DNA of 64,000 bases, taken from NCBI GenBank assembly GCA_003151425.1, contig PLXO01000100.1, forward strand, positions 68,415-132,414, written 5' to 3'. Under the pieces are notes generated by a model. That model was not told where the DNA came from and made no database searches. It saw only the letters and a list, made by a program, of their open reading frames with translations. Shown piece after piece: positions 20,331 through 34,955 of the stretch; position 1 is the stretch's first letter; every line of letters starts with the position of its first letter. A program made the position numbers and the translations under genes. The stretch comes from Acetobacteraceae bacterium (GTDB taxonomy: Bacteria; Pseudomonadota; Alphaproteobacteria; Acetobacterales; Acetobacteraceae).

Positions 20331-21068
20331 TCAACCATGCATCCGATTGAGGAAACGAGCCACCCGCTCGGGCGCGCTGCCGTTGAAGAAATCGCCCACC
20401 GGCGCGCGATGCGCAACGAGGCCGGCTTCCATGAACATCACCTCGTTCGCCGCGCGGCGCGCGAAGCCGAGCTCATGGGTGACGACGATGCTGGTCATGC
20501 CTTCCTCGGCGAGCTCCTGCATCACGCTCAGCACCTCGCCGACCGTTTCGGGATCGAGCGCGCTGGTCGGTTCATCGTACAGCATCAGTGCCGGCTCCAT
20601 CGCCAATGCGCGGGCGATGGCGACACGCTGCTGCTGGCCACCGGACAGCTCGTCCGGAAACGCGGCGGCCTTGTCGGGCAGATGCACCTTGCGCAGCAGA
20701 TGGCGCGCCAGCTCCCGCGCCTGCTTCACCGGCCTGTGCTTCACCCGGATCGGTCCGAAAATGATGTTGTCTTCGGCGGACAGGTGCTGGAACAGCTCGA
20801 AATTCTGAAACACCATACCCATCCGCCGGCGCAACAACGCGGCCTGCTTGCGCGGCGTGTTGGCGATCTCCTGGCCCTCGAACATGATGCTGCCGGACGC
20901 AATCGGCTCCAGCAGGTTCAGACAGCGCAGCAAGGTCGACTTGCCGGAGCCGGAGGGGCCGAGCAGCACCAGGCACTCGCCCGGCGTCACCGATACGTCG
21001 ACGCCCTTCAACACATCGAGCGCGCCAAAGCGTTTCCAGATCGCAACCGCGTCGAGCAAGTGGGTCAT
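20331..21068 (-). CDS. Polar amino acid ABC transporter ATP-binding protein
   Basis: MTHLLDAVAIWKRFGALDVLKGVDVSVTPGECLVLLGPSGSGKSTLLRCLNLLEP...LSGGQQQRVAIARALAMEPALMLYDEPTSALDPE. Confidence 0.96.
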   Translation of the reverse strand: MTHLLDAVAIWKRFGALDVLKGVDVSVTPGECLVLLGPSGSGKSTLLRCLNLLEPIASGSIMFEGQEIANTPRKQAALLRRRMGMVFQNFELFQHLSAEDNIIFGPIRVKHRPVKQARELARHLLRKVHLPDKAAAFPDELSGGQQQRVAIARALAMEPALMLYDEPTSALDPETVGEVLSVMQELAEEGMTSIVVTHELGFARRAANEVMFMEAGLVAHRAPVGDFFNGSAPERVARFLNRMHG

Positions 21069-21829
21069 CGGATAGACTGGGTACTTGCGGCTGCCAACAC
21101 CACGCGCCGCGCGCCGGGGCGACGGCGGAAGCTGCGCTCGATCATCGATTGGATCGCCATAAAAACGGTGGTCAGCGCCAGGTAATACAGGCCGGCGGCG
21201 GTGAGCGTCTCGATGTAGCGGAAATTGCCGGAGGCCGTCTGATCGGCCACCAGCAGCAGCTCCTGCACGCCAATCACCGAGACCAGCGCTGAAAGTTTCA
21301 GCATGCCGATGAACTGGTTGCCGATCGGCGGGATGATGATGCGCAGCGCCTGCGGCAACACGACCCAGCGCATCACCCGCCATTCCTCCAACCCCAGCGC
21401 CCGCGCGGCCAGCCGCTGGCCCGGCCCGACCGCGCGAATGCCGGAGCGCATGATCTCCGCCATGTAGGCGCCCTCGTTCAGGCCCAGCGCCAGCACGGCG
21501 CAGGCGAAGCCTGGCAGCAGAACGCCAAAGGCGGGCAGCACGTTGAACGCGAACACCAGTTGCAGCAGCACCGGCGTGCCGCGAAACAACCAGAGATAGA
21601 ACACGACCAAGGCCCGCACGGCGCGCAGCGGCACTTCCTGTCCCACCGCCAGCAGCAGCCCCACCGCCATGCCAGTGGCGAGCGAGGCGATGCTGAGCGA
21701 CAGCGTCATCATCGCGCCATGGAAAAACGCCGCGCTGAGCAGGTACTGCGCCAGCAGATGCGGCTGGAACAGCGACATGCGCGCGCCAACCGCTTTCAGA
21801 ATGCCGAGCTGGCGGGCGGCAGGTTCCAT
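21065..21829 (-). CDS. Amino acid ABC transporter permease (HisM/GlnP type)
   Basis: GAMMTLSLSIASLATGMAVGLLLAVG...WLFRGTPVLLQLVFAFNVLP...EGAYMAEIMRSGIRAVGPGQ. Confidence 0.94.
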   Translation of the reverse strand: MEPAARQLGILKAVGARMSLFQPHLLAQYLLSAAFFHGAMMTLSLSIASLATGMAVGLLLAVGQEVPLRAVRALVVFYLWLFRGTPVLLQLVFAFNVLPAFGVLLPGFACAVLALGLNEGAYMAEIMRSGIRAVGPGQRLAARALGLEEWRVMRWVVLPQALRIIIPPIGNQFIGMLKLSALVSVIGVQELLLVADQTASGNFRYIETLTAAGLYYLALTTVFMAIQSMIERSFRRRPGARRVVLAAASTQSIR

Positions 21830-22587
21830 TTCTGGATCAGCGTCGCATAGGTGCCGTCGGCGACGATCGCTTGCACCGCCTTGTCGAGCGCGACCTTCAA
21901 CGCGGGATTGTCCTTGCGCACCGCGATGCCGACCTTGGTGCTGGTGTCAAACGGCGCGCCGCCGGTGGCGTAGGCGCCGGGCGTCTCATGCATCAGCGCA
22001 GCGACCGTTGCGGTGGAGACGATGATGGCGTCCGCGCGTTCCTGCGTCAGCGCCAGTGCGCAGTTGGTGGTGCCCGGCAGCAGCAGCAGGCTGACCTCCG
22101 GTTTGCCTGCTGCCTTGCATTGATCGTTGGCCTGCTTTGCGGCGACCTCAAACACCGTGCCGACCGGCGCCGCGACCTGCTTGCCGCACAACGTGGCCAC
22201 GCCGTCGATCTTCTTGGGATTGCCCGCGCGCACGACGATCTGGTTGCCCACCAGCAGGTAGGGGACGAGGTCGGCGACCTCCAGTCGTTGCGGATTGATG
22301 TACATACCGCTGACGATGATATCGACGCGCTTGCCCAGCAACGCCGGGATCAGGCCCTTGAACTCGATCGGCATGATGGTCGACTGCAGTCCCATTCTCC
22401 TGGCGACCGCGTCGGTGAAATCGATGTCGAAGCCGATGGGTTTGCCGCCGGTGTCCGCGAACTCGAACGGTGGGAAGGTGACCGAGGCGCCCCAGGTCAG
22501 CTTGCCCGCTTCCGCGAGTTCAGGTGCCTGCGCGAATCCCAGGCTCGGCAGCAGAACGAGCGCAAGCGTCATGGCCAGTCGCAACAT
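21796..22587 (-). CDS. Amino acid ABC transporter substrate-binding protein
   Basis: MLRLAMTLALVLLPSLGFAQAPE signal peptide; LTWGASVTFPPFEFADTGGKPIGFDIDFTDAVARRMG. Confidence 0.94.
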   Translation of the reverse strand: MLRLAMTLALVLLPSLGFAQAPELAEAGKLTWGASVTFPPFEFADTGGKPIGFDIDFTDAVARRMGLQSTIMPIEFKGLIPALLGKRVDIIVSGMYINPQRLEVADLVPYLLVGNQIVVRAGNPKKIDGVATLCGKQVAAPVGTVFEVAAKQANDQCKAAGKPEVSLLLLPGTTNCALALTQERADAIIVSTATVAALMHETPGAYATGGAPFDTSTKVGIAVRKDNPALKVALDKAVQAIVADGTYATLIQKWNLPPASSAF

Positions 22588-22725
22588 AGCAGTTCCCCTC
22601 CGGTATACCGGTTCTGATCGTGCAAACCCTGTGCCATAGGCCACCGAGTTGGGCCATGGTATCCCCAGCATAGACCGGACTCCTGAACAGGACCGACTCA
22701 TGGCAGGGTCGCCGCCGCGCGGCCA

Positions 22726-22768: not shown

Positions 22769-22782
22769 AAGGAGCTTGATTG

Positions 22783-24033
22783 ATGACGCTCGCACGGCAT
22801 GGGGCGATCGTGATTGGCGCCGGGGTGGCCGGCCTATCCGCCGCGCTCTATTTGCAGCGCGCCGGGGTCGCGGTCGCGGTGATCGATCCGCTGCCGCCGG
22901 CGGGCGGCGCATCGTTCGGCAATGCCGGCTTGCTCAGCCCTGACACCGCGGTGCCGATCGCGCTGCCCGGCATGCTGCGCAAGGTGCCGGGCTGGCTGCT
23001 CGATCCACTTGGCCCGTTGTCAGTGAAGCCGAGCTACTTCCCGCGCGCACTGCCATGGTTGCTGCGCTGGATCGAGTCCGGACGGCTGCACCGCGTGATG
23101 GCAATCTCCGACGCGATGCGCGCGCTGCACAAGGAGACGCTGACCTGCTGGAAGGAACTGTTGGGGGCGGAACTATATGGCGGGCTGATCCGCCAGGTCG
23201 GCCAGGTGCAGGTGTGGGAGGGTGACGCGGAAAGCGCCAGCGCGGTGGTGGAACGCCAGGTGCGCGAACGGCAGGGTATCAAGACCGAGGACCTTACCGC
23301 CGACGACCTTCGCCAGATGTTTCCGGGCATCGCCCGTGAAGTGACGCGCGGTCTGCTGGTGCCGGGCAATGGCTACACCGTCAGTCCTCAGCGCAGCGTG
23401 CGCACGCTTGGCGAGTTGTTCCGCCAAGAGGGCGGCACGCTGATCAACGAACGCGCAATGAAGTTGATTCCGCAGGATGGCGGTGGCTGGATGGTGATGA
23501 CCAACACGGCCAACCGCAGCTCCGAGCACGTCGTGCTGGCCGGTGGCGCTTGGTCGCGGCAATTGCTCGATCCGCTCGGTATCCGTGTGCCATTGGAGAC
23601 CGAGCGCGGCTACCACGCGATGCTGTTCGATCCGGAAGTGACACCGTCGCTGCCGATCAGCAACAAGACGCGCGCGTTCGGCGTGACGCCGATGGAGGAC
23701 GGGCTGCGCATTGCCGGCACGGTGGAAATCGCCGGACTGGATGCGGCCCCGAACGAGGAGCGCGCGAAGATCCTGGTAGGGCATGCGAAGCGAATGTTCC
23801 CGGCGCTGAAGGGCGAGCGGGTGCGCTACTGGATGGGCTTTCGCCCATCGACGCCGGACAGCCTGCCGATCCTGGGTCCGGCGCCAGGTCGCACCGGACT
23901 TCATTTCGTGTTCGGTCATGGACATTTCGGCATGAGCGGCGGGCCGCCGAGCGGACGGCTGGTTGCGCGGCTGATAACCGGCCAGGCGCCCGGCATCGAT
24001 CCCGCGCCCTACGCGGCGCAACGCTTCCGCTGA
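22783..24033 (+). CDS. FAD-dependent oxidoreductase, D-amino acid dehydrogenase (DadA)-like
   Basis: GAIVIGAGVAGLSAALYLQRAGVAVAVIDPLPPAGGASFGNAGLLSPDTAVPIALPG...WMGFRPSTPDSLPILGPAP. Confidence 0.92.
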   Translation: MTLARHGAIVIGAGVAGLSAALYLQRAGVAVAVIDPLPPAGGASFGNAGLLSPDTAVPIALPGMLRKVPGWLLDPLGPLSVKPSYFPRALPWLLRWIESGRLHRVMAISDAMRALHKETLTCWKELLGAELYGGLIRQVGQVQVWEGDAESASAVVERQVRERQGIKTEDLTADDLRQMFPGIAREVTRGLLVPGNGYTVSPQRSVRTLGELFRQEGGTLINERAMKLIPQDGGGWMVMTNTANRSSEHVVLAGGAWSRQLLDPLGIRVPLETERGYHAMLFDPEVTPSLPISNKTRAFGVTPMEDGLRIAGTVEIAGLDAAPNEERAKILVGHAKRMFPALKGERVRYWMGFRPSTPDSLPILGPAPGRTGLHFVFGHGHFGMSGGPPSGRLVARLITGQAPGIDPAPYAAQRFR

Positions 24034-24047
24034 AGGAGAAACGGACG

Positions 24048-25376
24048 ATGGCGGTCAGCGAGATCTATCATTCCACCTTCAAGGCGATGCCATATTGGTG
24101 GGAGGCCTATCATCCCACGGCGCAGGATCCGCTGGAGCTACCCTCGCGCGTGCGTGTCGCGATCGTCGGCGGCGGCTATGGCGGGTTGTCCACCGCGCTG
24201 GAGGGCGCGAAGCAAGGCGTGGACTGCGTCGTTCTGGAGACGGCCGAGCTGGGCTTCGGCGCCAGCACACGCAATGGTGGTGGCGTCAGCGGCGGGGTGA
24301 ATATCGGCAAGAGCTTCTCCGGCAAAAGCCTCGATCCGTCGTCGGAACGTGCGCAGGCCGTGCTGGCGGATGGCGCCGATGCGTTCAGCCTGATCGAGCG
24401 GCTGATCGCGGAGGAAGGCATCAACTGTTATTGGAAGAAGACCGGCCGCTTCGTCGGCGCCTGGACGCCGGGACATTACGCGAGCCAGGCGAAGAAGATC
24501 GCACTGTTGAATCAAGCCGCACGGTCGGAGGCGTATATGGTCCCACGCGAGCGCCAACGCGAGGAGATGGCGAGCGATTATTACTATGGCGGCATGGTTG
24601 TGGAACGCTCCGCCAATCTGCATCCGGCGCTGTACTACAAGGGACTGCTGGATGCCTGCCACGCGCGCGGTATTCCGGTGTGCGCCCGTGCACCGGTCAC
24701 CAAAATCACCGAGCGCGACGGTGGTTGGTTGGTGCAGACCGAGCGCGGCGCTGTGCAGGCCGACGAAGTGGTGATCGCCACCAACGGCTACACCGGCGAC
24801 GTCACACCGGAGCTAAAACGGCGCGTGGTGCCGTTGGCCAGCCACATCATCGCCACCGAGGAATTACCGCCCGACCTCGCGGCGTCCCTGATCCCCAAGC
24901 AGCGTACCCTGGCCGACACCCGCCGGGTGCTGTGCTATTATCGAATGTCGCCCGACGGCAAGCGCATGATCTTCGGCGGGCGCGCGCGGTTCACACCCGT
25001 CACACCGCACGAAAGCGCGCCGATCCTGCATCGTTTCATGACCGATCGGTTCCCGCAGTTGCGCGGCACGAAGATCACGCATGCCTGGACCGGCAATGTC
25101 GCGTTCACGCTGGATGCGCTGCCGCATATGGGCCGGCAGGACGGCATGCACTATCTGCTGGGCTGCAACGGCAGCGGCGTCGCGATGATGACCTATCTGG
25201 GCTGGCAAACCGCGCGCAAGATCGCCGGCGTGGCGAATCAGCCGAGTGCATTCGATACTGAGGAATTTCCCTCGCATAGACTGTATTCCGGTAATCCCTG
25301 GTTCCTGCCGGCGATTGGCGGATGGTACCGGTTGCGTGACAATTTGGATCGGGGGCTCGCGTCGCTGTCGTCGTAA
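24048..25376 (+). CDS. FAD-binding oxidoreductase, gamma-glutamylputrescine oxidase (PuuB)-like
   Basis: MAVSEIYHSTFKAMPYWWEAYHPTAQDPLELPSRVRVAIVGGGYGGLSTALEGAKQG...ASTRNGGGVSGGVNIGKS...CNGSGVAMMTYLG. Confidence 0.92.
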   Translation: MAVSEIYHSTFKAMPYWWEAYHPTAQDPLELPSRVRVAIVGGGYGGLSTALEGAKQGVDCVVLETAELGFGASTRNGGGVSGGVNIGKSFSGKSLDPSSERAQAVLADGADAFSLIERLIAEEGINCYWKKTGRFVGAWTPGHYASQAKKIALLNQAARSEAYMVPRERQREEMASDYYYGGMVVERSANLHPALYYKGLLDACHARGIPVCARAPVTKITERDGGWLVQTERGAVQADEVVIATNGYTGDVTPELKRRVVPLASHIIATEELPPDLAASLIPKQRTLADTRRVLCYYRMSPDGKRMIFGGRARFTPVTPHESAPILHRFMTDRFPQLRGTKITHAWTGNVAFTLDALPHMGRQDGMHYLLGCNGSGVAMMTYLGWQTARKIAGVANQPSAFDTEEFPSHRLYSGNPWFLPAIGGWYRLRDNLDRGLASLSS

Positions 25377-25631: not shown

Positions 25632-26291
25632 TCACGCCGGCGGCGCGGCTCCGGGATCATTCGCGCGGGTGACGTAGGCCTCGGCTTCGGGCTCATATTC
25701 GCGCCACAGCCGCGACAGCTCGGTGATCGGGGCCGGATCCGAATCGACCCGCAGGTCGACATAGGGAAAGCTCTCGCGGTGCGCTACCAGCAGAGCGGCG
25801 GAGATCACCGGAACGAACTCCCCGCCCGCCGCCTCGCCCGCCGCGAGCGCGGCGATCAGCCGCCTGGCGAGGGGCAGCGCTGGATCAGCCTCGAACGCGC
25901 GGACCATGGCGGCGGGGATGTCGGTCGAGCGGACAATGTTCGCGATGGCGACACAGTCTTTGCCATGCGCCTCGCCGGCCTTCTCCGCCGCCACATGCGC
26001 ACCTGTAAAGGCAACGGTGCGACCCGCGGCGTCGAGCACCGCAAGCTGACGCCAATCGGGATGCGGCGCGACGGCGAGAACGGCCTGCATCGTATGCCGG
26101 GCATCGTAGCCGCGTGCCAGCAGATCGAGCGCCAGCGGCCCCAGCCGCGGATCGGTGCGATGCTGCGTCAGACACGCCCCGACGCCGGTGCGCACATGGG
26201 AACACCGCGAGCCGGCGGCGATGGATGAGGTCGTCACCGCGGCGCCCAGCATGCCGGTGCGCGCGCAACGACCAAGCAGCGAGAAGGTCAT
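25632..26291 (-). CDS. DUF1028 domain-containing protein
   Basis: MTFSLLGRCARTGMLGAAVTTSSIAAGSRCSHVRTGVGACLTQHRTDPRLGPLALDLLARG. Confidence 0.9.
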   Translation of the reverse strand: MTFSLLGRCARTGMLGAAVTTSSIAAGSRCSHVRTGVGACLTQHRTDPRLGPLALDLLARGYDARHTMQAVLAVAPHPDWRQLAVLDAAGRTVAFTGAHVAAEKAGEAHGKDCVAIANIVRSTDIPAAMVRAFEADPALPLARRLIAALAAGEAAGGEFVPVISAALLVAHRESFPYVDLRVDSDPAPITELSRLWREYEPEAEAYVTRANDPGAAPPA

Positions 26292-27535
26292 GCGTTGTCT
26301 CCTTGCAGCATCGCCGTGATATCGACCTCCATCACCAGTTCGGGGCTGGCGAGGCCCTTGATGATGAGCGTGCTCAGGCACGGTACGGCCGGGCCGAGAT
26401 GGCGCAGCACCACGTCGGTCACGCAAGTCAGGTACGCGCGGTCGGTAACGAACACCGTCGCCTTGACGACATCGCTCAGCCGCGCGCCCGCTTCGCCGAG
26501 CAACACCGCCACGTTCTGCATCGCCTGCTCGGCCTGCGCGGGCGGATCGCCGGCGCCGTGCATCACCTCATTCAGATCGGTCCCGGTCTGACCGCGCAGC
26601 ACCACATGCCCCCCGGCGCGCACCGCCATGCAAAAATCGCAGTCGATGTTCTGCTGACTGAAGCCGTAACGGACCGCGTTGGAATGGTAGCGCCGCACGC
26701 GCAGGTGTGGGCAGCCCTGCTTGCGCATCGCCTGCACGTCGATCTCGAACAGGATGTCGGGGCGCGCGAAGCCAGGCACGATGATGCCGGTGGACACCGG
26801 ATGGATGCCACGGAAGTGTCGCCCGATTATCGGGTACACCGCGTGGCGATAGGCACGGTCGCTGATGTAGACAGTGATCTTGGTCACATCGTCCATTTCG
26901 GCGCCGGCTTCATGCAGCAGGGTCGCGAGATTGGTAAGCGCGCAGTCGGCCTGCGCCGCCGCGTCCTGCGGCCGGCGACCGGGGCCTGCCATCACGCTGC
27001 CGTCGAGCGCGGCGCCGGTCTGGCCGCGGATGAAGATATCCTGCGGCCCGGCGGCGACCATTGCGCCCTGCCAGGCGATGTCCTGACTGAACCAGTCCTT
27101 GAGCTCGAAGGTGCGCAGTCTGGTGACCGCGGCGCCGATCACCGCTTCCGCATCGATCTGCACCATCAGTTCCGGGTGCGAAAGGCCGGCGACGACCAGG
27201 CCGGTGCTGACCGGGAAGACATCCTTCAGCCGCCGGCCGAGCGTGTCGTAGACCCGTTTGCGGTGCGCCCGATCGACCAGCGACGTGGTCAGCTTGGTGA
27301 TGTCGTGCAACGAACCGCCGGCGGTATTGAGCGCGGCTTCGATGTTGTCCAACGCTGCCTCGGTCTGCGCCGCGGCGTCGCCCAGCCCGGCGACCGAGCC
27401 ATCCGGGCACAGCGCGCTACGTCCGCTGAGGAAGACGCGATTGCCGCCGCGCATGGCACCGGCAACGGACGTGGCGGCCGGGCCATCGGGGAGAAAATGC
27501 GCTGCCTCCAGCGGCACAAATCGGTCATGCGGCAT
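26288..27535 (-). CDS. Rid (RidA/YjgF/UK114) family protein with three tandem Rid domains
   Basis: Three internally homologous blocks: DAAAQTEAALDNIEAALNTAGGSLHDITKLTTSLVDRA / DAAAQADCALTNLATLLHEAGAEMDDVTKITVYISDRA / PPAQAEQAMQNVAVLLGEAGARLSDVVKATVFVTDRA; overlaps DUF1028 at ATGA. Confidence 0.92.
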   Translation of the reverse strand: MPHDRFVPLEAAHFLPDGPAATSVAGAMRGGNRVFLSGRSALCPDGSVAGLGDAAAQTEAALDNIEAALNTAGGSLHDITKLTTSLVDRAHRKRVYDTLGRRLKDVFPVSTGLVVAGLSHPELMVQIDAEAVIGAAVTRLRTFELKDWFSQDIAWQGAMVAAGPQDIFIRGQTGAALDGSVMAGPGRRPQDAAAQADCALTNLATLLHEAGAEMDDVTKITVYISDRAYRHAVYPIIGRHFRGIHPVSTGIIVPGFARPDILFEIDVQAMRKQGCPHLRVRRYHSNAVRYGFSQQNIDCDFCMAVRAGGHVVLRGQTGTDLNEVMHGAGDPPAQAEQAMQNVAVLLGEAGARLSDVVKATVFVTDRAYLTCVTDVVLRHLGPAVPCLSTLIIKGLASPELVMEVDITAMLQGDNA

Positions 27536-27656
27536 CGGGCGGTTCGCCTTTCCCTGGTAACCGGATCATGGTGATACGCTAAACGTGGCGGCTGGTCCAA
27601 GCCAGGACCCACGCGCCGGCAATTCTCATTTCGGCCGGGCTGTGTTCCCCCGCGTC

Positions 27657-27891: not shown

Positions 27892-30132
27892 ATGTCTCTA
27901 CTATCCGGTTTTCGCGTCGCTCAGCTCGGCCAGGGTCTCGCCGCTGCCGTCTGCGGGCGGCTGCTTGCCGACCTTGGCGCCAACGTCGCCTGCACCGACC
28001 CGGACATTTCGGCACCGCTCGCGGTGTATCTGAATGACGGCAAGACGGTCTTGGCCGACGGGGCCGCGCAGGCGGCTTTGTCGCACGCCGACATGATCGT
28101 CTGCGAAGGTGGCCCGGCGGCGCTGCGCGAGCGGCACCACGGCTCCGACGACCTCCGACCGATCAACCCCTCCGCCGCTCTGGTTTTCATCTCGCCGTTC
28201 GGCCAGACCGGACCGCTGGCGGATCAACCCGCAACGGACCTGACGTTACACTATGCCAGCGGCATCGCCCGCCTGCTGATCGGCCAGGTGGATGATCTGA
28301 CAGAGCCGCCGATCCGTGCGGTCGGTCAACAATCCGCTTTCATCGGCGGCATCGCCGCAGCCTGCGCCGGCATGCACGCGGCACTGTCGGTCACGGCCGG
28401 CACGCTGATCGATGTTTCGATCCAGGAAGCACTCGCCACGCTGGCGATGACCGAGCTCGCGCGCGCCGGGCACGGCGGCAAAAGCCGAGCGCGCAAACGC
28501 GTGACCGACGGTAACGGCGCCACCGTCTGCATCCTGCCGGCGCGCGACGGCTACGCCGCGATCTCGCCGCGCGAGGACCGGCAATGGGCGGCTTGGCTCG
28601 CCGCGATGGGTTCGCCGGCGTGGGGCGCCGATCCGCGTTTTGCCAGCAAGGCCGACCGGGTCGCCAACTGGGACGCGCTGCACGCGCTGATGTCGGCCTG
28701 GAGCCGCCAATACGACAAGCAAACGATCGCCGCTATCGCGCAGGCAGCGCACGTGCCAAGCTTTCCGTTGCGCGAGCCCTCGGAACAACTGGCCTCGGCG
28801 CAGCTTGCGCACCGCGGATTCTACCGGCCGCTCAGGCTCGGCGGCCACGCGGTCCAGGCGCCCGGACCACCTTTCGGACTGCGCATCATGCAGGCCGCGC
28901 GCGAGAAGGTCGACGGCGAGCACGAAACGCTCGGGAGCGAACGCGAAGCGCCCGAGGTCAAGCGCGACGGACCCGGGGGCAAGCGCGACGCACCGGGGCC
29001 GATGCCGCTGACCGGCATTCGCGTGCTCGACTTCAGTTGGGTCATCGCCGGCCCGACGACCACGCGCTATCTCGCGGCGATGGGCGCGGAGGTGATCAAG
29101 GTCGAGGCCCCAGGCCGCGGCGATCCGGGTCGCGCGACCGAGTTGCACAGCGTGCTCGGCCAGGCCAAGCGCAGCATCGTCCTCGACCTGAAGCAGCCCG
29201 AGGCGGTCGAGGTCGCGCGCAAACTGGCCGCACGCTGCGACGTTCTGGTCGAGAATTTCGCCACCGGCGTGATGGAGCGTCTTGGCCTCGGCGCGGACGC
29301 GCTTCAGGCGATCAATCCAGGTCTGCTCTACGTCTCTGCGTCCGGTCTCGGGCGAACCGGCCCGGAGTCGCATGCGGTCGCCTACGGCACGCTGCTGCAA
29401 TGCTACGCCGGCTTCGCCGGGCTGAACCGCCATCCGCACCTGCCACCACGCGTCGGCCTGGCGTGGCTGGACCCGATGTGTGGCCTCATGCTCGGGTTTA
29501 TCATTGCGACTGCGATCTGGCATCGCCGGCGCTCGGGCGCGACGGTTCGCGTCGATTTCTCGATGCTCGAGGCGATGCTGTGGACGATGGCCGAACCGTT
29601 GCTGGCGGCGCAGCTCGATGCGCCACCCAAACCGCGCGGCAACCAGTCCGATCGCTGCGCCCCGCATGGCGCCTATCGTTGCGACGGCGACGACGACTGG
29701 GTCAGCATCGTGGTCCGCGACGATGAAGACTGGCACAGGCTGTGCGCGATCGTTCCGTCCCTGTCGGAGATGGCGAAGCTCGGTTTCGCCGATCGATGCG
29801 CGGGCGGCGACACGATCGACGCCGCACTGTCGGCCTGGGTCCGACCGCGCGATGCACGAGGAACCGCCGATGCGCTGATGCGCGCCGGTCTACCTGCCGC
29901 GGCGCTTGCCACCTCACGTGACCTTGTCGAGAGCCCCCATCTGCGCGCACGCGGCTTCTGGGACGCCGACGTTGCCGGGGTTCTGCCCGGCCTGCCATGG
30001 CGCGCCAGCTTCGGCCGAACGACCGGGGCCGCACCGGGCCACGGCACCGATACCGGAACGGTTCTAACGGAGGTCCTCGCTCTGTCGCCGGCGGAGATCG
30101 CGGCGCTGCGCGGCGTCGGCGCGTTGGGATAG
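27892..30132 (+). CDS. CaiB/BaiF CoA-transferase family protein, fused double-domain
   Basis: Two CaiB-type N-termini (LLSGFRVAQLGQGLAAAVCGRLLADLGANV...; PLTGIRVLDFSWVIAGPTTTRYLAAMGAEVIKVEAPGRGDPGR) in one 746 aa ORF. Confidence 0.93.
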   Translation: MSLLSGFRVAQLGQGLAAAVCGRLLADLGANVACTDPDISAPLAVYLNDGKTVLADGAAQAALSHADMIVCEGGPAALRERHHGSDDLRPINPSAALVFISPFGQTGPLADQPATDLTLHYASGIARLLIGQVDDLTEPPIRAVGQQSAFIGGIAAACAGMHAALSVTAGTLIDVSIQEALATLAMTELARAGHGGKSRARKRVTDGNGATVCILPARDGYAAISPREDRQWAAWLAAMGSPAWGADPRFASKADRVANWDALHALMSAWSRQYDKQTIAAIAQAAHVPSFPLREPSEQLASAQLAHRGFYRPLRLGGHAVQAPGPPFGLRIMQAAREKVDGEHETLGSEREAPEVKRDGPGGKRDAPGPMPLTGIRVLDFSWVIAGPTTTRYLAAMGAEVIKVEAPGRGDPGRATELHSVLGQAKRSIVLDLKQPEAVEVARKLAARCDVLVENFATGVMERLGLGADALQAINPGLLYVSASGLGRTGPESHAVAYGTLLQCYAGFAGLNRHPHLPPRVGLAWLDPMCGLMLGFIIATAIWHRRRSGATVRVDFSMLEAMLWTMAEPLLAAQLDAPPKPRGNQSDRCAPHGAYRCDGDDDWVSIVVRDDEDWHRLCAIVPSLSEMAKLGFADRCAGGDTIDAALSAWVRPRDARGTADALMRAGLPAAALATSRDLVESPHLRARGFWDADVAGVLPGLPWRASFGRTTGAAPGHGTDTGTVLTEVLALSPAEIAALRGVGALG
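28915..28998 (+). repeat. 4 x 21 bp in-frame degenerate repeat encoding a heptad linker
   Basis: Translated GEHETLG/SEREAPE/VKRDGPG/GKRDAPG between the two CoA-transferase domains. Confidence 0.8.
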
Positions 30133-32184: not shown

Positions 32185-32928
32185 TCAGCCCCCTGCCCGC
32201 GCGTTGCGGAAGGTGACCACCAGCACATCGCGGTGCGCTGGCAGCGCGGGGTCCAGTGGCTGCACCGGCGTGACGCCGTGATAGACCCGCGCGTCGTCCA
32301 CCAGGGCCGCATCGAACGGATGCGTTAGCGTGAAGCTGCCCAGCAGGCGCCGCTCCAGATCGTGGATCGTCGTCGTTCCGCTGGCGATATTTTGCCGCCC
32401 GACCAGCAGCACCAGGACATAGTCGACGCCATCGCGGTGCAATCCTTCCGGTGTCGGCTGGCCGGCCTCACCAGGTCGCGCCTCGATGCGGAACTGGTGC
32501 ACCTCGATGTGCCAGGCGCGGACCTCCGGGGCGAGGCCGCCGAACAAGCCATGGCAGAATCGCAGGATCGTGCGCAAGCTGTCCCCGTCGCCGATCACGT
32601 CGGTGATCGGGGAGAACCAGCGCGCGATGCCGCCGTTCAGATTGTTGTAGTCGAGCGTTTGGAAGTGCGCCTGATGTGGCTGGCGCCGAATCGCGCCGTC
32701 CGCCGTGGCAGCGAAGATCGCGTGGCGCCGGCGGCGGTAGCGGCCGCCATCGGCCATGTAGGTGTCAAGGTCGAGCGCGTCCCAGCTCGCCGCGAAATCA
32801 CCCCAGTCGGTCAACGCACCGGCTGACACCAACCCCTGATGCATCGCCTCGGCGGCGACGAAGACATAGCCGGCACCGGCGAGATGCGTGTCGAGCGCCT
32901 CGTCCGGATGCAGAACAAGTTCGCTCAT
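32185..32928 (-). CDS. 2OG-Fe dioxygenase family protein (PF10014/IDO-like)
   Basis: PEGLHRDGVDYVLVLLVGRQNIASGTTTIHDLE...LTHPFDAALVDDARVYHGVTPVQP (HxD...H facial triad). Confidence 0.85.
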   Translation of the reverse strand: MSELVLHPDEALDTHLAGAGYVFVAAEAMHQGLVSAGALTDWGDFAASWDALDLDTYMADGGRYRRRRHAIFAATADGAIRRQPHQAHFQTLDYNNLNGGIARWFSPITDVIGDGDSLRTILRFCHGLFGGLAPEVRAWHIEVHQFRIEARPGEAGQPTPEGLHRDGVDYVLVLLVGRQNIASGTTTIHDLERRLLGSFTLTHPFDAALVDDARVYHGVTPVQPLDPALPAHRDVLVVTFRNARAGG

Positions 32929-34955
32929 GCCGCCTCCTGGTACGCAGCGACATCAAGCCAGGTGCTCTGGTACGTCGCGCCGTCACCCATGTCGGTGTAG
33001 CGGTCGGAGCACAGCATGTTGATGGTGCCGGAAATCGCCTCGGTGTCGGGGCGCTGGCCCACCACCAGGACGACGCCCGGCTGCACCTCGTCGCTGACGC
33101 GTAACGTAAATACGACATCCCCGCGATCGTTGAACAGCCGCACGCGCTGCCCGTCCGCCAGGCCGCGCGCCGTCGCATCGTCGGGATGCAGGATGCAGAC
33201 GGCGGGGCCTTCGCGCTTGCGCAGGAACTCGACGCGCGAATAGACCGTGTGGCTCTGGAAGTAGCCCGGCGCGGTCAGCAAGCGCAGCTTCCAACGCGCG
33301 GCATCGCGCTGCTCATCGGGATCGGGCGCCCAGTCGGGCATCGGCGGCTGACCCTTGGCGGCCAGTGCTTCCGAGTAGAATTCCAGCTTGCCGGAGGGTG
33401 TGCGGAACTGCTGCGGGCCATCCGGTGCCAGCCGGATCGGGCCTGCGGTCTTCACCGCAGCCGGATCGAGCGTCGCCGCCTGGCCGGACGCGCCGTTGAA
33501 CAGCGCGCCCAGCATCGCATCCTGCGACATGCCGAAGATCGGATCGTTCAGGCCCATGCGAACCGCGAGCTCCTGCGCGAAGTCGACGTTGGATCGCGCG
33601 CCCGGTTGCGGGGCCACGGCCCGCGGACCGTATTGCAGATAGTAGGCACCGTAGGCGCGATACAGGTCCTCGGTTTCCAGATACATCGCCGCCGGCAGCA
33701 CGATGTCGGCATAGCGCGCGGTGACCGACAGGAACGGATCGTGCACCACGGTGAACAGATCCTCGCGCATCAGGCCACGGCGCACCTTGGCCAGGTCGGG
33801 ACATGTCACTGCCGGATTGTTCGCCGAGACGAACAGCGCGCGGATCGGCGGATCGCGCATCTCCGTCAATGCCTCGCCGATGCGCAGATGGTTGACCATG
33901 CGCGTCGTTGCCGGACCGGACGGTTTGCGCACCGCGTTGTAGTTTAGCTCGCAAGACGCGGCGGTCATCAGCAGCGCGCCACCGCCCTTGCGGGCATAGG
34001 CGCCGGTGACACCCGGCAGCAGCGCCACCGCGCGCAGTGCCTGGCCGCCGTGCAGCAGCCGAGTCATGCCCTCGCCCAGGCGGATGAACGGCGCCCTGGC
34101 GTTGCCATACACCGCGGCGAGGCGTTCGATGTCCGCTTCCGCCAAGCCGGTGATGACGGCGGTGCGTGGCGGATCGAAGCGCGGCAGCACCTCGTGTTCC
34201 AGCCGGTCGAATCCCACGGTGTGCTCGGCGATATAGGCGCGGTTGCACAACCCATCGCGCACCAGGATGTGCATCACGCCGAGCGCCAGGGCTGCGTCGG
34301 TACCAATGCGGATCGGCAGGTGCCAGTCGGACCGCACGGCGGTGCGGCTGCGGCGCGGGTCGATCACGACAAACGGCACACCCTTGCGGCGAAGCTGCTC
34401 GACACGGGCAAAGAAGTGCACGTTGGTGGTTACCAGGTCGGCTCCCCAGGATATTACCAAATCGGAATGCTCAACCGTCTCCGGATCGGCGCCGCCGATC
34501 GCGCCGACCGTCGCGTCCCAGGCGGCCTCGCAACAGGTGTCGCACACCGTTCCGGCTTGTAATCGGCTGCTGCCGAGGGCGTGGAACAGCCCGTTCACCA
34601 GGCCGCGGTTCATCTGCCCCGAATGCGCGCTGTAGGCGTAACCGAGCAACGCGAGCGGGCCGGACTCGGCGATGATCGCCTTCCAGCGCGCGGTGATTTC
34701 GTCCAACGCTTCGTTCCAGGTGATCGGCGCGAATAGCCCCTCGCCCTTCGGCCCGATGCGGCGCAGCGGCGAGGTCAGGCGATCGGGCGAATGCACCAAC
34801 TCGGCGTCGCGGTTCACCCGCGCGCAGGCGAAGCCGGCGGTGAAGGGCTGGTCGGGATCGCCCTCGACGCGCATCACGCGTCCGTCCTCGACATGGGCGA
34901 GCAGCGAGCACATGTCGGGGCAGTCGTGCCCGCAGACGACGCGAATGGTTTCCAT
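32925..34955 (-). CDS. Molybdopterin-dependent oxidoreductase (DMSO reductase/formate dehydrogenase-like)
   Basis: METIRVVCGHDCPDMCSLLAHVEDGRVMRVEGDPDQPFTAGFACARV 4Fe-4S motif; C-terminal molydopterin dinucleotide-binding-like region. Confidence 0.94.
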   Translation of the reverse strand: METIRVVCGHDCPDMCSLLAHVEDGRVMRVEGDPDQPFTAGFACARVNRDAELVHSPDRLTSPLRRIGPKGEGLFAPITWNEALDEITARWKAIIAESGPLALLGYAYSAHSGQMNRGLVNGLFHALGSSRLQAGTVCDTCCEAAWDATVGAIGGADPETVEHSDLVISWGADLVTTNVHFFARVEQLRRKGVPFVVIDPRRSRTAVRSDWHLPIRIGTDAALALGVMHILVRDGLCNRAYIAEHTVGFDRLEHEVLPRFDPPRTAVITGLAEADIERLAAVYGNARAPFIRLGEGMTRLLHGGQALRAVALLPGVTGAYARKGGGALLMTAASCELNYNAVRKPSGPATTRMVNHLRIGEALTEMRDPPIRALFVSANNPAVTCPDLAKVRRGLMREDLFTVVHDPFLSVTARYADIVLPAAMYLETEDLYRAYGAYYLQYGPRAVAPQPGARSNVDFAQELAVRMGLNDPIFGMSQDAMLGALFNGASGQAATLDPAAVKTAGPIRLAPDGPQQFRTPSGKLEFYSEALAAKGQPPMPDWAPDPDEQRDAARWKLRLLTAPGYFQSHTVYSRVEFLRKREGPAVCILHPDDATARGLADGQRVRLFNDRGDVVFTLRVSDEVQPGVVLVVGQRPDTEAISGTINMLCSDRYTDMGDGATYQSTWLDVAAYQEAA

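Follow-up and report, generated by a model that had tools for sequence, protein, structure and literature searches.

A window of 64,000 nucleotides from an Acetobacteraceae bacterium, the whole stretch of DNA analysed here, encodes a protein in which three Rid domains follow one another in a single chain. The Rid proteins with structures in the papers cited below are homotrimers. The locus raises the question whether such a chain is a homotrimer made covalent, with equivalent active sites, or a ring whose units have become unequal.

The triple Rid gene and its three blocks

A Pfam profile search found three PF01042 stretches in the 415-aa protein (whole-protein E 8e-43), and in a profile scan of the whole genome the blocks T1, T2 and T3 (Table 1) reached 49.2, 45.3 and 59.2 bits against the PF01042 cut-off of 27.3. 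Each of the three blocks is by this measure a member of the Rid/YjgF/YER057c/UK114 superfamily, which confirms the three tandem Rid/YjgF blocks read from this open reading frame in an earlier note, the middle and last blocks included. TIGR00004 (Rid family detoxifying hydrolase) likewise matches in three stretches, with 112 bits in all at a cut-off of 106.25. The same note had reported the catalytic arginine as missing, and this holds: the position of RidA Arg105 is taken by Ser in T1 and T2 and by Leu in T3, where the aligned residue is the Leu preceding "STLII".

Compared with the orthologues L029, L030 and L031, dN is well under dS in all three blocks (against L029, dN 0.17 and dS 0.91 for T1, 0.15 and 0.65 for T2, 0.19 and 0.76 for T3). 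T1, T2 and T3 are under purifying selection, and the gene is therefore not a chance open reading frame. An antisense frame of 486 aa (26114-27574, +) is regarded as a high-GC artefact because it is the minus frame that bears the Rid domains. A promoter scan around the triple Rid gene found none.

Table 1. Features of the triple Rid locus, in positions of the window
Feature	Position	Strand	Remarks
Polar amino-acid ABC transporter (ATPase, permease, solute-binding protein)	20331..22617	-	nearby context
D-amino-acid-dehydrogenase-like FAD oxidoreductase (DAO)	22780..24033	+	PF01266
FAD-dependent amine/amino-acid oxidoreductase (DAO)	24048..25376	+	PF01266; convergent neighbour
DUF1028 gene (PF06267)	25632..26291	-	PF06267 E 5.5e-60; start overlaps triple Rid stop
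Triple Rid gene	26288..27535	-	415 aa, block order A'-A-B; PF01042 x3, orthologues
Block T3, B type	26306..26707	-	105-half lost (T88 L105 S106 T107); 120-half kept (G31, E120)
Block T2, A type	26726..27127	-	both half-sites kept (Y88 S105 T106 G107; G31, E120)
Block T1, A' type	27134..27535	-	105-half kept (Y88 S105 T106 G107); 120-half lost (Gln120; degenerate N-terminal strand)
Double CoA-transferase III (CaiB/BaiF) protein	27892..30132	+	divergent neighbour

Known fused Rids and the missing arginine

Triple fusions have a name already. Niehaus et al. 2015 (PMC4433059) call them "3x-RidA", with Enterococcus faecalis EF_0115 as an example, and present them as three tandem fused Rid domains presumed to be covalently linked trimers. 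The window protein, with three tandem Rid domains in one chain, matches 3x-RidA in domain arrangement, and may like these fold as one trimer-like unit. The idea of the earlier note that three fused domains could build the whole trimer in one chain consequently loses its novelty, the more so as a solved structure, that of chorismatase, offers a single-chain match; it gains from the single globular chain and the non-equivalent interfaces predicted below.

The Arg-less state is equally familiar. According to the same paper, about 10% of RidA proteins have Ser instead of Arg at position 105, Trp at 105 is reported for Rid4 and Rid7, and the Arg-less Rid4-7 have no known imine hydrolase activity, Rid7 of S. 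enterica showing none (PMC4433059). Neither Trp105 of the Rid4/Rid7 type nor the catalytic Arg105 of RidA and the Arg-bearing imine hydrolases Rid1-3 occurs in T1, T2 or T3, and without Arg105 an assignment as classical 2-imino-acid deaminase fails. The earlier note had taken the absence of Arg to suggest a divergent subfamily or a non-deaminase role; it does not set this protein apart, since the sampled single-domain relatives also do without Arg105. Both the fusion itself and the missing Arg are thus of kinds already known (Niehaus et al. 2015). Half-site specialisation, split or two-gene kin and a link to DUF1028 are unmentioned in the available text of that paper, the comparison with EF_0115 being one with its description (PMC4433059), and they are likewise absent from the earlier note.

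Half-sites of the Rid cleft

The cleft of E. coli TdcF lies between two subunits; Asn88 orients Arg105, and Glu120 hydrogen-bonds the Cys107 carbonyl across the interface (PMC1884159). With residue numbers taken from an alignment with E. coli RidA (L092), we divide the cleft into a "105-half" (88/105/107) of one subunit and a "120-half" (Glu120, packed on Gly31) of the next. The pattern of kept and lost halves is the same in 7/7 triple chains. T2 has both half-sites intact in all seven, and T1 keeps Y88-S/G105-T106-G107 with Gln120 in each of them; Gly31 is lost from two of the T1 blocks, Asn56 from five. T3 retains G31 and E120 throughout, with F, L or V at 105 and mixed residues at 88 and 107.

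Blocks and genes with both halves are here called A, those with the 120-half lost A', and those with the 105-half lost B. Separate A-type genes have Y88, T106, G107, G31 and E120 in 43/43 and Ser105 in 38/43, counts that are partly circular because the types were set by motif thresholds chosen post hoc; a tree with the signature columns masked serves as the independent check on them. This half-site specialisation of the blocks is what appears to be new here, and no earlier description of such a series was found in the literature searched.

Distribution of triple, split and two-gene forms

The triple chains number seven in total. Orthologues of 56-76% identity are L029, L030, L031, L032 and L011/L054, and L034/L089 is a single, more divergent one; the named orthologues come mostly from Acetobacteraceae MAGs. 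A full triple is present in 5 of the 398 sampled genomes of the family, and 12 more have a match to a two-block stretch. In 11 of these 12 the match belongs to a split form, in which a complete one-block gene (S1) comes before a two-block gene (S2, S3), the two overlapping by 4 bp (ATGA) or lying a few bases apart; the first block of the two-block gene is without its N-terminal strand. The half-site pattern is repeated in this form: S1 is mostly intact, S2 has Gln120 in 12/12 and S3 has lost the 105-half in 12/12. Entropy at the lost positions of T3, S3 and the B genes exceeds the block mean, and at the kept halves it is zero or low. Two split loci carry changes in the one-block A gene as well: that of L071 has R88 and G120, and that of L080 has A120 together with a truncated N-terminus. 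In genome G732 (L070/L088) a single reading frame holds the whole split-form trio, fused; its first block is strongly degenerate and scores weakly with the HMM (27 bits).

A third arrangement consists of two genes. Five loci (L082, L083, L123-L125; genomes G365, G172, G275, G440 and G282) have an intact Rid and a 105-lost Rid 2-3 kb apart, i.e. A+B, and one (L084; G037) has a 120-lost Rid with Met120 separated by about 7 kb from a 105-lost Rid, i.e. A'+B. On the half-site reading, neither Rid of G037 could form a complete cleft alone. Of the eight separate B genes six have a Rid partner in the fetched locus, and of the 43 A genes 5 do (Fisher p 0.0006, in a sample that includes related, non-independent genomes, with four of the two-gene loci from one family); the B genes L126 and L141 have no Rid partner nearby.

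Two tandem genes of another alphaproteobacterial family (L018/L053; G084) each encode three divergent Rid domains, which like those of the window protein are without Arg105. Their blocks branch with other Rids and share only about 25% identity with the window protein, so that they look like an independent triplication. A phylum-wide search for further triples of the L018 type gave only a single-domain match at the threshold used.

History of the blocks

A first tree with distant outgroups had low support and long branches, and was superseded by later trees. In the masked tree the B genes form one clade with T3 and S3 (27 rows, 90/80, one change), T1 and S2 come together (98/82), as do S1 and the A gene of G282 (92/89). 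A recent internal triplication was rejected, a T1+T2+T3 clade having a p-AU of 0.035 on the unmasked set. On that set a collinear pairing of T1 with S1 and T2 with S2 was not rejected (AU p 0.29-0.30). A correspondence of T1 with S2, though not certain, agrees better with the half-site pattern and with the masked tree. With moderate support, block order appears to differ between the forms, being A'-A-B in the triple and A plus A'-B in the split form.

These results bear on a first alternative, that the protein is a 3x-RidA fusion of the usual kind: a homotrimer made covalent, with three equivalent working sites, in which differences between blocks reflect drift or fine-tuning. Such fusions are described (PMC4433059), and purifying selection on all blocks would fit three working sites. 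We nevertheless think this reading unlikely, as the three blocks are not each other's closest kin and all seven triples, and again the split form, show one and the same half-site pattern.

A second alternative, which we regard as quite unlikely, is that the B and A' blocks gained new chemistry, giving each chain different active sites for successive or alternative intermediates. In its favour are the invariance of Gln120 in T1 and S2 and the frequency of His105 in S3 (8/12) and Phe105 in T3 (5/7). However, variation at positions 88, 105 and 107 of the B blocks is above the block mean, and the residues there are not the same from one B group to another, which looks like relaxed constraint.

Predicted fold

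An AF2 run on six orthologues gave a model of the triple chain with a mean pLDDT of 77.7 and a pTM of 0.84, in which the chain is predicted to form one globular unit. Its top PDB matches in Foldseek are the chorismatases 5ag3 and 4bps (about 372 columns, TM 0.53 by query and 0.65 by target), followed by single RidA chains. The two-block protein of the split form (pLDDT 87.3, pTM 0.87) again has a chorismatase as its top fold match.

Chorismatases resemble a Rid trimer within one chain. Those of the FkbO/Hyg5 type (PDB 4bps, 5ag3) are single chains that match the triple Rid model end to end, at about 16% identity, and the chorismatase NCBIfam model TIGR04444 gives the triple Rid 23.6 bits against a cut-off of 325, far below the level of that family. 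AtzD and barbiturase ("Toblerone" fold) are held to derive from concatenated YjgF-like units and are pseudo-threefold chains (PMC3758960), as the triple Rid may be; they differ in their four-stranded repeat units and in the Ser-Lys dyads of a central barrel. Cyanuric acid hydrolase and barbiturase gave no sequence match and were not among the best 50 fold matches listed.

Gene neighbourhood and the link to DUF1028

The stop codon of the triple Rid gene and the ATG of the DUF1028 gene overlap by 4 bp, ATGA (GCATGACC). A DUF1028 gene likewise lies 3' of the triple in L032 and L089 and beside many single Rids; the flanks read of the triples L029 and L054 have none. No paper on the DUF1028 family was found in the literature searched. 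The convergent FAD-dependent oxidoreductase is a possible source of imines for the Rid protein, and clustering of Rid with FAD oxidases is reported by Niehaus et al. 2015 (PMC4433059). Farther off in the window, a large open reading frame (32925-34955, -), molybdopterin oxidoreductase-like by eye, adjoins a 2OG-Fe dioxygenase gene (32185-32928, -).

The closest sequence relatives of the triple are DUF1028-linked single-domain Rids, for example those from plasmids of Klebsiella, Rhizobium, Streptomyces and Arthrobacter. They share Y88-S105-T106-G107, E120, the lack of Arg105 and the DUF1028 neighbour, and differ in having one domain with both half-sites kept, expected to form a homotrimer. The plasmid relatives lie in clusters of FAD oxidoreductase, RidA, DUF1028 and M20 peptidase genes, to which Arthrobacter and Streptomyces add an aspartate ammonia-lyase. 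Plasmid pKLZT-2 of Klebsiella pneumoniae (L061) has RidA-DUF1028-ArgE with ABC transporter, GST-like and dehydroquinate dehydratase genes; a similar Rid gene occurs in 105 Klebsiella plasmid records, in one of which (pKLZT-2) the gene order was read. No triple Rid is among the plasmid matches listed, which span about one domain.

In alphaproteobacteria an HpaB-type flavin monooxygenase gene is often found 5' of Rid/DUF1028. Locus L082 (G365) has HpaB-type monooxygenase genes, DUF1028 and two Rids (A and B) in one same-strand run. Split and two-gene loci also include amidohydrolases, an arginase-family protein, MmgE/PrpD, M20 and peptide ABC transporters. We infer that the theme shared by these neighbourhoods is the catabolism of nitrogenous compounds.

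A non-catalytic role in the operon (ligand sensing, chaperone or scaffold), with the trimer as a binding module, would agree with the absence of Arg105 from every block and with the precedent of the Arg-less Rid4-7 and S. enterica Rid7 (PMC4433059), but is very improbable given the (near-)invariant Glu120 and Y-S-T-G motif in the blocks that keep them and the recurrent linkage to flavoenzymes and hydrolases.

A probable unequal ring in one chain

We consider it probable that the window protein is a covalent Rid hetero-pseudotrimer A'-A-B, in which two clefts are live and one is dead, and that it acts in a catabolic setting linked to DUF1028. T1 would contribute only a 105-half, T3 only a 120-half, and T2 both. 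If the 105-half of T3 faces the 120-half of T1, both lost halves would meet in one dead cleft, and live clefts would remain at T1/T2 and T2/T3. We prefer this arrangement because it is the simplest that uses every conserved half; the other ring arrangement may have one live and two dead clefts. The substrate step is likely the hydrolysis or deamination of an imine, an enamine or an intermediate akin to these, in a site that lacks the Arg usually engaged in carboxylate binding. The intermediate would likely be made by a flavoenzyme and handled jointly with the DUF1028 protein in an operon for the catabolism of nitrogen compounds. A flavoenzyme-fed hydrolysis related to imino-acid deamination is a plausible form of this chemistry.

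The distribution of forms suggests that a ring of identical units turned, step by step, into a single chain whose units are unequal. A homotrimer A3 would have given rise to A and B in two genes, and these to the two chains A and A'-B, or to the single chain A'-A-B. A wider reading, on which we are evenly divided, is that of a heteromeric Rid branch in which A, A' and B with complementary half-sites assemble into obligate hetero-trimers, whether encoded as two genes, as one plus two blocks or as an A'-A-B chain. Extant genomes would then preserve the steps from a symmetric homotrimer to a ring locked into asymmetry, with one interface dead, and on to fusion. No paper pairing YjgF with "heterotrimer" was found in the literature searched.

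If the half-site reading is true, these loci provide a testable natural series in which a symmetric enzyme ring becomes a hetero-oligomer by complementary loss and is then fused. They also tie an Arg-less group of Rid proteins to DUF1028, a family of unknown function, through a gene pair that extends from actinobacteria to Klebsiella plasmids.
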